A DNA stretch of 32,069 nt from an uncultured Clostridia bacterium (GTDB lineage Bacteria > Bacillota > Clostridia > Christensenellales > UBA1242): NCBI GenBank assembly GCA_944372335.1, contig CALVYQ010000012.1:1-32069 (forward strand), read 5' to 3'. The notes under the pieces are model-generated. The model saw nothing but the letters and a program-made list of their open reading frames with translations. It had not been told where the DNA came from and did not search any database. The position numbers and the translations under genes are program-made. Each line of letters opens with the position of its first letter. The stretch's first letter is position 1. This document shows, piece by piece, positions 5,111-23,114 of the stretch.

Positions 5111-6433
5111 ATGAATGAAATTTTAGATTTTATCAAAGAGCATAAGCTTGTAAAAAAGGGTGATGTTATAGGTGTTGGTGTCAGCGGTGGGGTTGACTCT
5201 ATGTGCTTGTTGCACTATTTAAACAGCGTAAAAGAGCAACTTGATATTGAGGTTGTTGGTATTCACATCAATCATGGCATACGTGAAGAGAGTTATGATG
5301 AAGCCCGTTTTGTTTTAGAAAAGTGTAAAGAAATGGGAATTAGGGTGTATAAATTCACCATCGATTCAAACAAGATTGCAAAAGAGAAAAAGATTAGTTT
5401 GGAAACGGCGGCACGTGAAGGTAGATACGGTGTGTTTGAGGCACTCATAAAGAAAGATATTGTTGATAAGATTGCTCTTGCTCATCACATGAGTGACCAA
5501 GCAGAGACTATTCTTATGCACCTATTTCGAGGTGCGGGTGTTAAAGGTGCAAAGGGTATGGAGCCGATGCGTGATGGAATTTACATTAGGCCGATGTTGA
5601 ATACCTCAAAGAAAGAGATACTTGAATATGCATCTATGAACAATTTAGAATACGTGGAAGACAATAGCAATTATGACAATTCTTACAGCAGAAATTATAT
5701 GCGTAATGTTGTTATGAAGGATATTTTGGAACGTTGGCCAAATGCTATAGAGGCAATCAACAGTTTTTCTCGTACTGTATGCGAGGACGATGACTATATA
5801 GACAGTAATTTAGATTTAAATTCTTTGATTATAGATGATAAAGTTGTGCAGCTGCCATGCAGTGTCTTTAAACTCCACAGTGCGATTTACAGCAGATTGG
5901 TGTTTAAAGCACTTTCACTTATAAATGTGAAAAAGGATATTGAGAGAAAGCATATTGAAAGCATAAAAGCATTAGCAGTAAATTTGGAAAATGGCAAAAA
6001 AATCAAACTTCCATTAGATGTCACTGTTACAAAAGAATACGGCTTTTTAACCTTTGAAAATGTTTATACTGAAAAACCTGTCTTACGTAAGCCTAATAAA
6101 TGTTTTTCGTTTGATGTTGAGAATTTTGGAACAGTTACAATCAACCGTGTTAAGACAGGCGATTTGACGGACGGATTATATTTTGACTATCGCAAAGTGC
6201 CAAAAGATGCATATTGGAGATTTAGAGAGGAAGGAGACGTCTTTGAAAAATTTGGTGGTGGAACAAAAAAGCTAAAGTCTATCTTTATCGATAAGAAAAT
6301 TCCTGTGAGAAAGCGTGATTATATTCCTGTGCTTGCAAGTGGAAATGAAGTTTATGTTATAGTAGGTGTGGCAATAAGTGATAAAGTAAAAGTTGAGAAT
6401 GTTCCGACCTGTTATCGTGTTACAGTTGAATAA
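5111..6433 (+). CDS. tilS: tRNA(Ile)-lysidine synthase
   Basis: TilS ligates lysine to C34 of tRNA-Ile(CAU) using ATP, converting it to read AUA; it is essential where that tRNA decodes AUA. The N-terminal PP-loop ATPase motif SGGVDS is at about residues 25-30. It is followed by family segments NHGIR (57-61), LETAAREGRY (about 96-105), the LAHHMSDQAET stretch and the LFRGAGVKGAKGM segment. The C-terminal TilS substrate-binding domain (about 370-440) shows KLKSIFIDKKIP and ends with a beta-rich segment. The 440-residue length is normal. Its position directly behind spoIIE is conserved in Bacilli and Clostridia, but hpt and ftsH, which usually come next, are absent; a bidirectional terminator and a minus-strand gene follow. 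Confidence 0.95.
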   Translation: MNEILDFIKEHKLVKKGDVIGVGVSGGVDSMCLLHYLNSVKEQLDIEVVGIHINHGIREESYDEARFVLEKCKEMGIRVYKFTIDSNKIAKEKKISLETAAREGRYGVFEALIKKDIVDKIALAHHMSDQAETILMHLFRGAGVKGAKGMEPMRDGIYIRPMLNTSKKEILEYASMNNLEYVEDNSNYDNSYSRNYMRNVVMKDILERWPNAIEAINSFSRTVCEDDDYIDSNLDLNSLIIDDKVVQLPCSVFKLHSAIYSRLVFKALSLINVKKDIERKHIESIKALAVNLENGKKIKLPLDVTVTKEYGFLTFENVYTEKPVLRKPNKCFSFDVENFGTVTINRVKTGDLTDGLYFDYRKVPKDAYWRFREEGDVFEKFGGGTKKLKSIFIDKKIPVRKRDYIPVLASGNEVYVIVGVAISDKVKVENVPTCYRVTVE

Positions 6434-19335: not shown

Positions 19336-20004
19336 ATGAAAAGAGTTGTAGATGTGGCAGTTTCAACTGACCCAATTGATAATTTTCAAAATATTGTCGA
19401 TTACGCAAAGGAGATGCAGGGCATAGCTGAGTTTTTGCATTGTGATATCATGAACGAAAACTTTGTTGGCAAGAACACTTATGACTATAATGTGGTTAAG
19501 ACGATTAATAGTTCTAGTGCCATCATGCTTGATTGTCATTTGATGGTTAATGAGCCGGCAAACGATGTTTCAAAATATATAGATGCTGGAGCGAATATCA
19601 TAACCTTGCATTACGAAGCTTTTAAGGATAAAAACCAGTTGGCTCAAGTTTTAAAGTATATCAAAAAATGCAATGTGCTTGCCGGCATTAGCCTTAATCC
19701 TGCCACACCTTTTAAAGAGATTAGGGCGTTTGCGTATAGTGCTGATATTGTGTTAGTTATGGGTGTCGAGCCTGGAGCCTCTGGTCAGACAACCGATGAA
19801 GAGACATATAAAAAGGTGGCAAAAATTCATAGGTTTAAAGAGGATAACAATCTCAATTTTAAGATAGAGTTTGATGGCGGTGTAAATGAGAAAAACGCTC
19901 AAAAACTTCGAGATTTAGGTGTAGATATTTTAGTTTCAGGTTCCTATGTCTATAACAGCAAGGATAGAGTTTCCGCTGTGAAGTTTTTAAAGGGTATGGA
20001 GTAG
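19336..20004 (+). CDS. rpe: Ribulose-phosphate 3-epimerase
   Basis: Rpe interconverts ribulose-5-phosphate and xylulose-5-phosphate in the pentose phosphate pathway. The start is ATG 19336, 5 bp after GGAG (19327-19330); an in-frame TTG at 19309 has no ribosome-binding site. The 222-residue TIM barrel keeps the metal and catalytic residues: Ser10, the HCDIMN segment (His and Asp), DCHLMV (His), ISLNPATP, VMGVEPGASGQ (family: V-M-T/S-V-E-P-G-F-G-G-Q) and FDGGV (catalytic Asp). Small departures (LSAD replaced by VSTD, GF-G by GA-S) mark it as a divergent member. The rsgA-rpe linkage is a Firmicutes hallmark; the third usual member, thiN, is replaced by a HAD phosphatase. Confidence 0.92.
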   Translation: MKRVVDVAVSTDPIDNFQNIVDYAKEMQGIAEFLHCDIMNENFVGKNTYDYNVVKTINSSSAIMLDCHLMVNEPANDVSKYIDAGANIITLHYEAFKDKNQLAQVLKYIKKCNVLAGISLNPATPFKEIRAFAYSADIVLVMGVEPGASGQTTDEETYKKVAKIHRFKEDNNLNFKIEFDGGVNEKNAQKLRDLGVDILVSGSYVYNSKDRVSAVKFLKGME

Positions 20005-20018
20005 AATTGGAGGTACAA

Positions 20019-20627
20019 GTGATAAAGGTTGTCGCTTTTGACTTTGACAACACGCTTTATAATGGATATGTATTCAAAAATTATAGAGAATATTTGAAAG
20101 AAATTTTGACAAAGTATTTTAAAAATGAAGATAAAGCGGAAAATTTTTTAATTGACTGTTTCAAAGAAGATAATCATTACACTAACAAGGCGGTAAGCTT
20201 AAGATTGCAGGAGCTTGGTTATAGTGCAAAAAGATTTGTTAAACTTTTAGGAAAACATATCTATAAGCATGCCTGCACGCCTGAAATAATATCAACAGAA
20301 TTTTTAAAAGAGCTTGCTAAAAAATACCATCTTTACATAGCTACAATGTCAACACCACAATATCTTAAACACTATATGAAAAAATTTAATATTGACAGAA
20401 GACTTTTTAAAAAGTGCTATTCTGTTGATTTGTCGGCTAAAAACATCTCTAAAAAAGATATTTATTATAAATTATTAAAGAGAGAAAAAATTTCTAAAGA
20501 TGAATTACTTATGATTGGAGATAATCCTGTAGAAGATATTGAAACGGCAAAAGAAGTGGGTATAAAATATCTTTACTATAATAAAGAAAACTTCAACCAA
20601 ATATATAATTATTTTAAAAATCTATAA
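20019..20627 (+). CDS. HAD-superfamily hydrolase
   Basis: I place the start at GTG 20019, since TTGGAGGT (20007-20014) precedes it at good spacing and an alternative in-frame TTG at 20007 would be part of that site. The 202-residue product has HAD motif I DFDNTL (residues 7-12, with nucleophile Asp7 and acid Asp9), a helical cap (about 15-90), motif II Thr in ATMST (about 111-115), motif III Lys in the KKDIYYKLLKREK segment (about 147-159) and motif IV GDNPVEDI (about 167-174). It is probably a phosphatase for a small sugar or nucleotide phosphate; the substrate is unknown. It ends the priA-rpe co-directional run, its last codons overlapping a terminator. Confidence 0.85.
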   Translation: MIKVVAFDFDNTLYNGYVFKNYREYLKEILTKYFKNEDKAENFLIDCFKEDNHYTNKAVSLRLQELGYSAKRFVKLLGKHIYKHACTPEIISTEFLKELAKKYHLYIATMSTPQYLKHYMKKFNIDRRLFKKCYSVDLSAKNISKKDIYYKLLKREKISKDELLMIGDNPVEDIETAKEVGIKYLYYNKENFNQIYNYFKNL

Positions 20628-20656
20628 TTTTACTAAAAAAATTATAGATTTTTTAT
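20616..20656. terminator. Terminator between the HAD gene and the convergent ferritin-like gene
   Basis: A 13-bp perfect stem AAAAATCTATAAT (20616-20628) / ATTATAGATTTTT (20641-20653), 12-nt loop, with T-runs on both sides. The 5' arm overlaps the end of the HAD gene. Confidence 0.75.
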
Positions 20657-20705
20657 AAAAAAATGTGATTTTTATTGAAAAATTTTAAATTTTTAATTTA
20701 AAAAT

Positions 20706-20993
20706 TTAGTTTTTATAGTTCATTGTGCTTTGCTTTGAAAATTCGTTTAGTCCTTTTTCAAATTGTTCCTTGCTTGTAGGGTCGAGCATAAATAAAAGTC
20801 CGAAGAGTTGACCGACGTGCAATTTTTCTTCGTTTACAATATCCTGCAAAGTGGCACGGTATGTTGGGTCGGTGCTACTATTTATGTGTGCTTCATATTG
20901 AATGATGGCATCAAGTTCTCCGATGATATCAAGTCTTGTGTTTTGTGCTAAGGTGTTTACATTATTTTCCATAAGTGTGTAAGCGTTTCTCAT
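20706..20993 (-). CDS. Small ferritin-like protein (two-helix type)
   Basis: A 95-residue helical protein; the start at 20993 is preceded by GGAG in GGAAAGGAG on the minus strand. Two long helices are seen. The first has D-I-I-G-E-L-D-A-I-I-Q-Y-E-A-H (residues 22-36); the second has a D-I-V-N-E-E-K-L-H-V-G-Q-L segment (about 51-63), followed by L-D-P. The E-x6-Y-E-x-H and E-E-K-x-H pattern supplies carboxylate and His ligands for a diiron site. A subunit with half a normal four-helix bundle must dimerise, as in encapsulin-associated ferritins and some rubrerythrin-like proteins. No encapsulin gene is in the window. A role in iron or peroxide handling is inferred. Confidence 0.75.
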   Translation of the reverse strand: MRNAYTLMENNVNTLAQNTRLDIIGELDAIIQYEAHINSSTDPTYRATLQDIVNEEKLHVGQLFGLLFMLDPTSKEQFEKGLNEFSKQSTMNYKN

Positions 20994-21060
20994 AATTTCT
21001 CCTTTCCTTTTTAGATATTCTTACGCACATATTTTTGTTAATCTTATGCATACTTTTTTT

Positions 21061-21261
21061 ATGTATTTTAACTATCATGCTAAAGTTAAGAGATTGATTA
21101 AGGAGAAAAAAGCAATAGGGTATGAATTTTTAGAGAACTATCATAACATTTCGCCTTGTCTTTTAATTTATTTTAAAGATGAACGACCTATGCCGATAAG
21201 GGATAGTCATTTTGACGAATATTTGAAATTACTGAAAGAATATAAAATTAAACATATATAA
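21061..21261 (+). CDS. Small conserved-looking protein (66 aa), function unknown
   Basis: The open frame runs from ATG 21046 or ATG 21061 to the stop at 21259-21261; neither start has a clear ribosome-binding site. From 21061 it reads MYFNYHAKVKRLIKEKK, then G-Y-E-F-L-E-N-Y-H-x-I-S-P-C-L-L-I-Y-F (about residues 20-38) and R-P-M-P-I-R-D, with an aromatic/charged end. The regular N-Y-H-A-K, Y-F and P-M-P-I-R elements look like a conserved small domain. I recall similar short Firmicutes proteins, some carrying a doubtful 'hemolysin delta-VPH' label, but I would not transfer that function. It is divergent from the ferritin-like gene, sharing a 67-bp intergenic stretch. Confidence 0.6.
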   Translation: MYFNYHAKVKRLIKEKKAIGYEFLENYHNISPCLLIYFKDERPMPIRDSHFDEYLKLLKEYKIKHI

Positions 21262-21310
21262 TTTTTATAGAGATTTGCAAACTGAATATATTAGGCATAT
21301 AAAAAGAAAT

Positions 21311-21392
21311 AAAAAAAGAAAGTGCCACGAGTGATATTTCTATACTCAAATCTGTGGGGACTACAAGGCTAAAGCCGAGTCAAACACTTTCG
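21311..21392 (-). ncRNA. Unidentified small structured RNA with own promoter and terminator
   Basis: Read on the minus strand, RNA starting near 21392 folds compactly. A closing helix P1 GAAAGUG (21391-21385) pairs with CACUUUC (21324-21318) and is followed at once by seven U (21317-21311), so the whole fold acts as the terminator stem. Inside P1 are two arms. P2 is GACU...AGUC (from about 21381) with an inner GGC/GCC capped by UUUA. P3 is CCAC/GUGG enclosing, across a 6-nt asymmetric loop, GAGU-AUA / UAU-ACUC capped by a GAAA tetraloop, with one bulged C. There is no start codon, ribosome-binding site or coding frame. It does not resemble SRP, 6S, tmRNA, RNase P or a riboswitch that I know. 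Confidence 0.65.
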
Positions 21393-21397
21393 CTATT

Positions 21398-21426
21398 ATT
21401 ATATTCTTTTAAAAGATAAAAGTCAA
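21398..21426 (-). promoter_or_regulatory. Strong promoter of the small RNA
   Basis: Minus strand: -35 TTGACT (21426-21421), 17-bp spacer, perfect -10 TATAAT (21403-21398). The expected start, about 21392, is right at the foot of the P1 helix. Confidence 0.75.
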
Positions 21427-21489
21427 TATTTTAAAATAGTTTTTGTTTAGAAAATAGTTATATTATATTGAAAATTTTTTATATAATTA

Positions 21490-21518
21490 TTGATTATATT
21501 GTAGTTTTTTGATATGAT
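21490..21518 (+). promoter_or_regulatory. Promoter of the first YwaF-like gene
   Basis: -35 TTGATT (21490-21495), 17-bp spacer, -10 TATGAT (21513-21518), then AAGGAG (21528-21533) and the ATG at 21540. It is divergent from the small-RNA promoter 64 bp away. Confidence 0.65.
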
Positions 21519-21539
21519 GATAAAATCAAGGAGAAAAGT

Positions 21540-22334
21540 ATGACTTTTTTAGATTGGCTTATGAGTAGCTATCCTAATCCTTCCATACATGGACAGTGGG
21601 GCTTGTTACATATTTTGACACTTGTTGCTTGTATTATAATTATTGTGGCATTTACCTTTCTTTTTCGCTCTAAAAGTGAAAAAACAAGGAAAATTGTGCT
21701 TTGGTGTTTAGTGGCAATCTTGATATTATTTGAAGTAACAAGGCGTGTTATCAACTTTACAAAGACCACAGATTTTTCTTTTCAAAATGTGTTACATATT
21801 CTCTTGCCAAGGCCATGGTGTGCTATTTCTGTTTTTCTTATCATTTTTGCTATGTGCGTCAATAAAAAATTCATGTATAATTTTGTCAGTATAACCGGGC
21901 TTCTTTGTGCCTTAGCCTTTTTCGCTTATCCGGGCGTCGGATTCAATAATCAATATATTTTGTTTGAGAATCTATATTCCATTATGACACATAGCTTAAT
22001 TTTGATTTGCACAATTTTGATGATTACGTTAAAGTTTACAAAATTTGAATTTAAAACGATGTATAAAGAATTGGTCGTTTTGGCCTGCGTGCTAACCTAT
22101 GTACTTTTTGAAATTTATGTTTTAGGTATAGAAAGTGACCCGATGTATTTTATGCCGGGGAATGATATAATGGAAATATTGGGAGTATCTTATCCAAGCT
22201 TTATTGTGCTTTATATCTTGGTGTTTGCTCTCTACTTTTCCTCTTTCTACCTCATTAGCGACAGGAAAAGGAAGAAGAAAAGAAGCGAGGATAATTTTGA
22301 GCAAATTTTATCTATTATAAAAGAAAATATGTAA
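21540..22334 (+). CDS. YwaF-like (TIGR02206-type) multi-pass membrane protein
   Basis: A 264-residue protein with about seven hydrophobic segments (starting near residues 22, 50, 88, 110, 145, 175 and 220) and a Lys/Arg-rich cytoplasmic tail (SDRKRKKKRS, about 239-248). The short extracellular-type segment before helix 1 (GQWGLLHILTL), the long loop with ILLPRPWCAISVFLIIF and the later T-H-S-L-I-L segment match the layout of YwaF-type membrane proteins. In those, an H-x-x-x-L in helix 1 and a L-P-L-H-x-C-S-like loop are typical; here the loop is L-P-R-P-W-C-A. The function of the family is unknown. A second, more divergent copy lies at 29527-30417. Confidence 0.75.
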   Translation: MTFLDWLMSSYPNPSIHGQWGLLHILTLVACIIIIVAFTFLFRSKSEKTRKIVLWCLVAILILFEVTRRVINFTKTTDFSFQNVLHILLPRPWCAISVFLIIFAMCVNKKFMYNFVSITGLLCALAFFAYPGVGFNNQYILFENLYSIMTHSLILICTILMITLKFTKFEFKTMYKELVVLACVLTYVLFEIYVLGIESDPMYFMPGNDIMEILGVSYPSFIVLYILVFALYFSSFYLISDRKRKKKRSEDNFEQILSIIKENM

Positions 22335-22364
22335 ACAAAATTAGAGATATTTTTTTAAATCACT

Positions 22365-22392
22365 TTGATAAATTTTTGTTTTAGTGTAAAAT
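22365..22392 (+). promoter_or_regulatory. Promoter of rsmE
   Basis: -35 TTGATA (22365-22370), 16-bp spacer, -10 TAAAAT (22387-22392), then AGAGGGAAG and the ATG at 22410. Confidence 0.65.
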
Positions 22393-22409
22393 ATTAATGA
22401 GAGGGAAGT

Positions 22410-23114
22410 ATGAGAAGATTTTTTGGAGAAAAAGACGGAGATAAGATTTTAGTTAAAGGTGATGAGTTTAATCATCTTAAAAATGTTTTACGTCTTAAAG
22501 TAGGAGAAGAGATTATTGTAAGTCTTAACACAAAGTATGAGTATGTCTGCGAAATTCTTTCAATGGGCAAAGGTGTTGCGACTTGTAAAATCAATGGAGA
22601 AACAGAATGCTTGAAAAATCCTTGCAAAAACATCGTGCTTTTTCAGGCGGTAGCAAAAAAGGCTAAATTTGAATTTATTGTGCAAAAGGCAACTGAGATT
22701 GGTATTAGTGAAATCGTGCCATTTATGAGCGAGTATTGCATCGCTAAGGTGACAGAAAATAAGGCAGAAAGGCTTTATGATATAGCTCTCAATGCCTGCA
22801 AACAGTGTGAAAGAACAATAATACCAAAAATAGCAGAAACAACTGATGTGGCAGGCGTTATAAATAGATTTAAAGACTTTGATGTTGTGCTTTTTGCAAA
22901 CGAGAGAACCGATGTTGGCGAAAAACTTAATAAGCTTTCTAAATATAAGAACATAGCCATAATTGTCGGCTCAGAGGGCGGATTCTCTCAAAAAGAGAAG
23001 GAAAAATTTATTGAAGCAGGTGCTGTTTCTGTCTCTCTTGGAAAAAGAATATTGAGATGCGAAACTGCCTCTGTTGCTATGATGAGTTTGGTGTCTATTT
23101 TAAGTGATAATTAG
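22410..23114 (+). CDS. rsmE: 16S rRNA m3U1498 methyltransferase
   Basis: RsmE is a SPOUT-class (knotted) methyltransferase that methylates N3 of U1498 in helix 44 of 16S rRNA. The 234-residue product begins MRRFFGE and has a PUA-like N-terminal domain with H-L-x-x-V-L-R-L-K-V-G-E/D (about residues 22-33). Then come V-Q-K-A-T-E-I-G-I-S-E-I-V-P (about 90-103), a helical segment with E-R-T/S-x-I-P-K-I (about 132-139) and the knot region: V-G-S-E-G-G-F (about 188-194), where SAM binds, then L-G-K-R-I-L-R-C/T-E-T-A (about 210-220). It is followed 100 bp downstream by mtaB, the usual Firmicutes order. Confidence 0.95.
   Translation: MRRFFGEKDGDKILVKGDEFNHLKNVLRLKVGEEIIVSLNTKYEYVCEILSMGKGVATCKINGETECLKNPCKNIVLFQAVAKKAKFEFIVQKATEIGISEIVPFMSEYCIAKVTENKAERLYDIALNACKQCERTIIPKIAETTDVAGVINRFKDFDVVLFANERTDVGEKLNKLSKYKNIAIIVGSEGGFSQKEKEKFIEAGAVSVSLGKRILRCETASVAMMSLVSILSDN

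Follow-up and report, generated by a model that had tools for sequence, protein, structure and literature searches.

A probable family of free-standing small RNAs, patchily distributed in the Christensenellales and not found in Rfam

The window, a stretch of 32,069 nucleotides from an uncultured Clostridia bacterium (CALVYQ010000012.1), contains a 278-bp gap (21262-21539). It is flanked on one side by a 71-aa frame that has no Pfam match and on the other by a gene with a TMEM164 match, which we take, with the initial annotation, to be YwaF-like. Within this gap, whose size had been given correctly, the minus strand carries a promoter, a 74-nt RNA predicted to form a three-way junction, and a T-run, in the following arrangement:

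21421..21426, minus strand: -35 hexamer TTGACT (promoter scan and sequence)
21398..21403, minus strand: -10 hexamer TATAAT, after a 17-nt spacer (promoter scan and sequence)
21318..21391, minus strand: structured RNA, P1 through P1, 74 nt (fold and homologues)
21385..21391, minus strand: 5' arm of P1, GAAAGTG (helix scan and nine-member comparison)
21359..21381, minus strand: arm P2, GACU/AGUC with inner GGC/GCC and a UUUA loop (fold and pair changes)
21325..21357, minus strand: arm P3, outer CCAC/GUGG, 6-nt bulge and inner GAGU/ACUC hairpin (fold and pair changes)
21318..21324, minus strand: 3' arm of P1, CACTTTC, with the T-run flush (helix scan and nine-member comparison)
21311..21317, minus strand: T7 run, the putative terminator tail (sequence and nine-member comparison)

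The minus-strand promoter TTGACT-N17-TATAAT described in the initial annotation was recovered at 21426-21398. With 11 of 12 matches it ranks first among the 21 promoter-like sites of the region 20000-23000, a number of sites that is itself ordinary (15.6 in shuffles, sd 4.0), and 6 nt separate the end of its -10 hexamer from the closing helix GAAAGTG. The seven U placed directly after P1 are likewise evident, as is the lack of a T-run there on the plus strand. Scanning the window for the combination of promoter, closing helix and T-run gave two matches against 0.1 expected (10 first-order Markov resamplings), namely the small RNA locus itself and 6003-6114 on the minus strand, within the frame 5111-6433. 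A terminator scan, which admits loops of 3-8 only, omits the putative terminator of the small RNA.

Folding the window RNA reproduced the architecture first proposed, a three-way junction with a 7-bp closing helix (P1, GAAAGUG/CACUUUC) and two arms, P2 with its GGC/GCC core and P3 with its GAAA tetraloop (GAGUAUA-GAAA-UAU-C-ACUC). Beyond that description, P3 has the outer CCAC/GUGG helix and the 6-nt bulge; this outer helix is missing from the centroid structures. The fold energy is unremarkable, with z-scores of -1.36 and -1.70 (20 and 12 of 200 shuffles equally stable), and single-sequence energies are equally ordinary across the homologues introduced below (3 to 47 of 200). Folded singly, eight of the nine members again form a junction that is closed by the same P1 and has the bulge of 6 nt in P3, P2 being drawn differently within an otherwise like junction in G150 and G578; in G101 the minimum-energy fold is not the junction.

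How widespread is this RNA? We accepted eight homologues, of which two belong to the genus of the window and the remaining six are spread over four further families of the order; all nine members have motifs in common. Within the genus, three of 112 genomes were accepted: the window's own, G101 and G150. The G101 sequence belongs to Candidatus Caccovivens faecavium (DVLK01000088.1), under whose genus the window genome is also listed; PMC8035907 places Caccovivens in the Christensenellales, family UBA1242. A DNA search with the core matched four of the 112 genomes, the window's own, G101, G114 and G022, the last two by chance as judged on reading. A model built from the window and G101 sequences led to G150 at E 7.2e-8, and at E 2.4e-11 once the pairs of both arms were added. 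Among 396 genomes sampled from the order there were at least five further members (G589, G618, G370, G578 and G558), plus the window's own, and in the family of G618 at least three of 74 genomes carry the RNA, G702 being the new one. The class sample of 226 genomes returned the window genome alone among the best 18 candidates scored per genome. As the corresponding numbers were 11 for the order, 39 for the genus and 55 for the G618 family, members may have been missed, and it is with this latitude that we describe the distribution as patchy.

Many further candidates were set aside. A 151-base DNA search matched 95 of 101 genomes at E up to 1, those listed being mostly short AT-rich pieces. Among 309 genomes, a pattern search matched seven, five of which were rejected on reading, and a P2 pattern matched 37, exactly in the window and G150, with eight further places read and rejected. 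Within the genus, the two-sequence model at E up to 1 matched 18 of 112 genomes (three accepted, the others rejected on reading) and the both-arm model at E up to 0.2 matched nine (three accepted and five rejected on reading, the ninth being G135). The order search matched seven of 396 genomes, of which G538 was rejected on reading. An exact pattern run across genome contigs found two records, that of G101 and another that falls within a reading frame of a Neisseriaceae genome, and exact patterns had no match in viral contigs. With the query taken from the window, 55 phage and 2 plasmid records contained short pieces, none covering 80% and those listed at most 29%; the G618 query had no match in phages and plasmids.

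The RNA was described at the outset as free of reading frames and unlike any familiar RNA family. A frame starting at the GTG of GAAAGTG stops after 8, 8, 5 and 23 codons in the window, G150, G578 and G702, and meets no stop in G589, G618, G370 and G558; G101 has no GAAAGTG. With no frame kept across the nine members, a conserved peptide was rejected. At gathering score, Rfam 15 gave no match in the window, and only a single tRNA in seven loci that hold seven of the eight homologues (all but G702); permissive scans of the gap region and of the tandem array discussed below gave sub-threshold matches only. No title among those listed in a literature search concerns this RNA, although it may already have an entry in PMC8040213, which reports 3161 candidate RNAs from intergenic regions of human microbiomes.

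Pairs are altered on both sides among the nine members. Measured against shuffles, which related sequences can beat through kinship alone without any structure, the nine-sequence alignment (A11), fitted to the model and with counts that lean toward the structure, shows both-side changes in 8 of 21 pairs, amounting to 13 cells against 3.1 (none of 500 shuffles as high), and 16 further pair types against 11.4 (4 of 500). In this alignment 93.6% of 188 cells pair, and sliding the partners by 1-3 columns leaves at most three pairs changed on both sides. A MAFFT alignment of eight sequences, not fitted to the structure and with a one-column shift of two rows in P3, has 91.0% of cells pairing and both-side changes in 8 of 24 pairs (11 cells against 3.4, 0 of 500); its further pair types number 16 against 12.6, a value reached by 19 of 500 shuffles, and slid partners reach five pairs changed on both sides. 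Covariation supports the two predicted arms, P2 and P3, rather than the closing helix. As five of the seven P1 pairs are invariant and the helix hardly varies, covariation speaks neither for nor against it. The proposal that the closing helix doubles as terminator agrees with the tails, six or seven T flush with P1 in all nine members, whereas covariation is silent on it.

Two features typical of trans-acting small RNAs recur with the fold. Judged by consensus match rather than activity, eight of the nine members have a promoter of their own, in which the spacer measures 17 nt, 10-12 of 12 positions match and the end lies 6-9 nt before P1; the G101 promoter is weak, matching at 9 of 12 positions with a spacer of 16 and a distance of 16 nt. 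An intrinsic terminator, as read from sequence alone, is present in all nine. By eye, the same promoter type precedes RNase P-like and SRP RNA-like genes, which marks it as a strong promoter of the housekeeping type and not as a hallmark of the family. A third feature is the independence from any one neighbor. The copy in G101 follows rplS, that in G589 lies near rpsI and tRNA-Ser, and that in G618 upstream of uvrB; in G558 it stands beside a response-regulator gene, in G578 near a phospholipase D-like gene, in G370 after a membrane-protein-like frame, and in G702 it adjoins a 276-aa frame. The G150 copy (L084, G150:C23) sits inside an integrase-bearing element, on the strand opposite to both neighbors; this element also has a repressor, a replication-initiator-like gene, a ToxN-family gene and a DUF3644 gene. 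By eye, which is also how genes without a family match were named, no gene is common to the nine contexts, and such unlike neighbors argue against a cis-acting leader. In 11 relatives, inspection by eye of the stretch preceding the YwaF-like gene showed no such RNA, and these stretches have diverged too far to reveal a clean empty site. In G033 (L032), a CRISPR-like repeat array appears, by eye, shortly upstream of the YwaF-like gene.

What can be concluded about the nature of this RNA? The initial observation is confirmed and its interpretation supported: comparison of the nine members gives good support to a real free-standing small RNA family, patchy in distribution and not found in Rfam, and the locus probably represents a genuine, though as yet unstudied, RNA gene. 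Two of the outcomes named at the outset as refuting did not occur, since homologues with both-side pair changes exist and the eight members scanned have no Rfam match at gathering score. For the abundance first proposed, the one pointer is the consensus-like promoter. We favor, at a probability of roughly 60%, a free-standing accessory small RNA gene with its own promoter and P1 as terminator that acts in trans. A sigma-70-type promoter of its own would drive its transcription, which intrinsic termination would end with the closing helix as the stem; action in trans is suggested by the context, since the neighbors are unlike. As an accessory gene, it may have been gained and lost, or passed between lineages. 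As for its mode of action, we lean toward base-pairing, in which CCUUG on the 3' side of P2 might pair with ribosome-binding sites (CAAGG/AAGGA). This putative motif is kept in seven of nine members, the exceptions being G101 and G578; the CC within it is paired.

The main rival is that the structured RNA binds a protein or ligand through the asymmetric P2 loops and the P3 bulge, without base-pairing. The constant bulge length of 6 in all eight members of like fold and the largely conserved sequence of the P2 internal loop would suit such binding, but the bulge sequence is variable and the nine contexts, by eye, have no partner gene in common, so that we hold this to be unlikely. Less probable still is that the RNA belongs to a toxin or defence system, in which it would be the antitoxin or a decoy, an idea that draws on the patchy distribution and on the ToxN-family and DUF3644 genes of the G150 element; ToxN, however, lies ~3.6 kb from the RNA there, and no such gene was seen by eye beside the other eight copies, with five window proteins scanned. 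A long terminator or other DNA element without RNA function, though consistent with the conserved closing helix and T-run and the ordinary energies, is very improbable, given that eight of the nine members keep a promoter at fixed spacing and that pairs change on both sides in arms for which a terminator would have no use.

The favored trans-acting RNA may have company. In G618 (L117, 7605-8447), the family RNA by eye opens a same-strand series of about six small RNA genes that are unlike one another. All have a promoter-like site, and in five of the six a closing helix runs into T6-8. Four of them, the family RNA included, pass a strict scan against 0.0 expected (10 locus resamplings). The RNAs differ in sequence, though parts of their promoters and spacers recur. 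A relative of the third RNA occurs in G552 (L124, G552:C1:227480-227617; 69% over 148 query bases), whose closing helix shows apparent compensatory changes by eye. Also by eye, a separate RNA of apparently the same plan occurs in G618:C5 (L137, around 1501-1547), and in G702 (L121) a second RNA-like unit, with a short closing helix and T7, lies directly upstream of the member. The tandem array points to a kind of small-RNA cassette whose shared plan would be a strong promoter, a multi-arm RNA and a closing helix that is also the terminator; that our RNA is itself such a cassette, drawn from a larger and mobile set of dissimilar small RNAs that can stand in tandem as in G618, is a tentative idea that we consider rather doubtful. 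In any event, a family found from one raw sequence would add a structured RNA to the Christensenellales, a gut order known largely from metagenomes.

Among known RNAs, DUF3800-V RNA (RF02964) aligns weakly over the window RNA (13.6 bits, E 7.5), far from its gathering score of 37.4, and the proteins scanned against Pfam, from the window and the G150 element, include no DUF3800 match. Another comparison is offered by RsaE/RoxS and the csRNAs, trans-acting Gram-positive small RNAs with pyrimidine-rich pairing motifs. Like them, the new RNA appears to be free-standing, with its own promoter, an intrinsic terminator and a possible anti-Shine-Dalgarno stretch; unlike them, it has no gathering-score match in Rfam, its CCUUG is partly paired, and the helix that closes the whole RNA would at the same time be the stem of its terminator.
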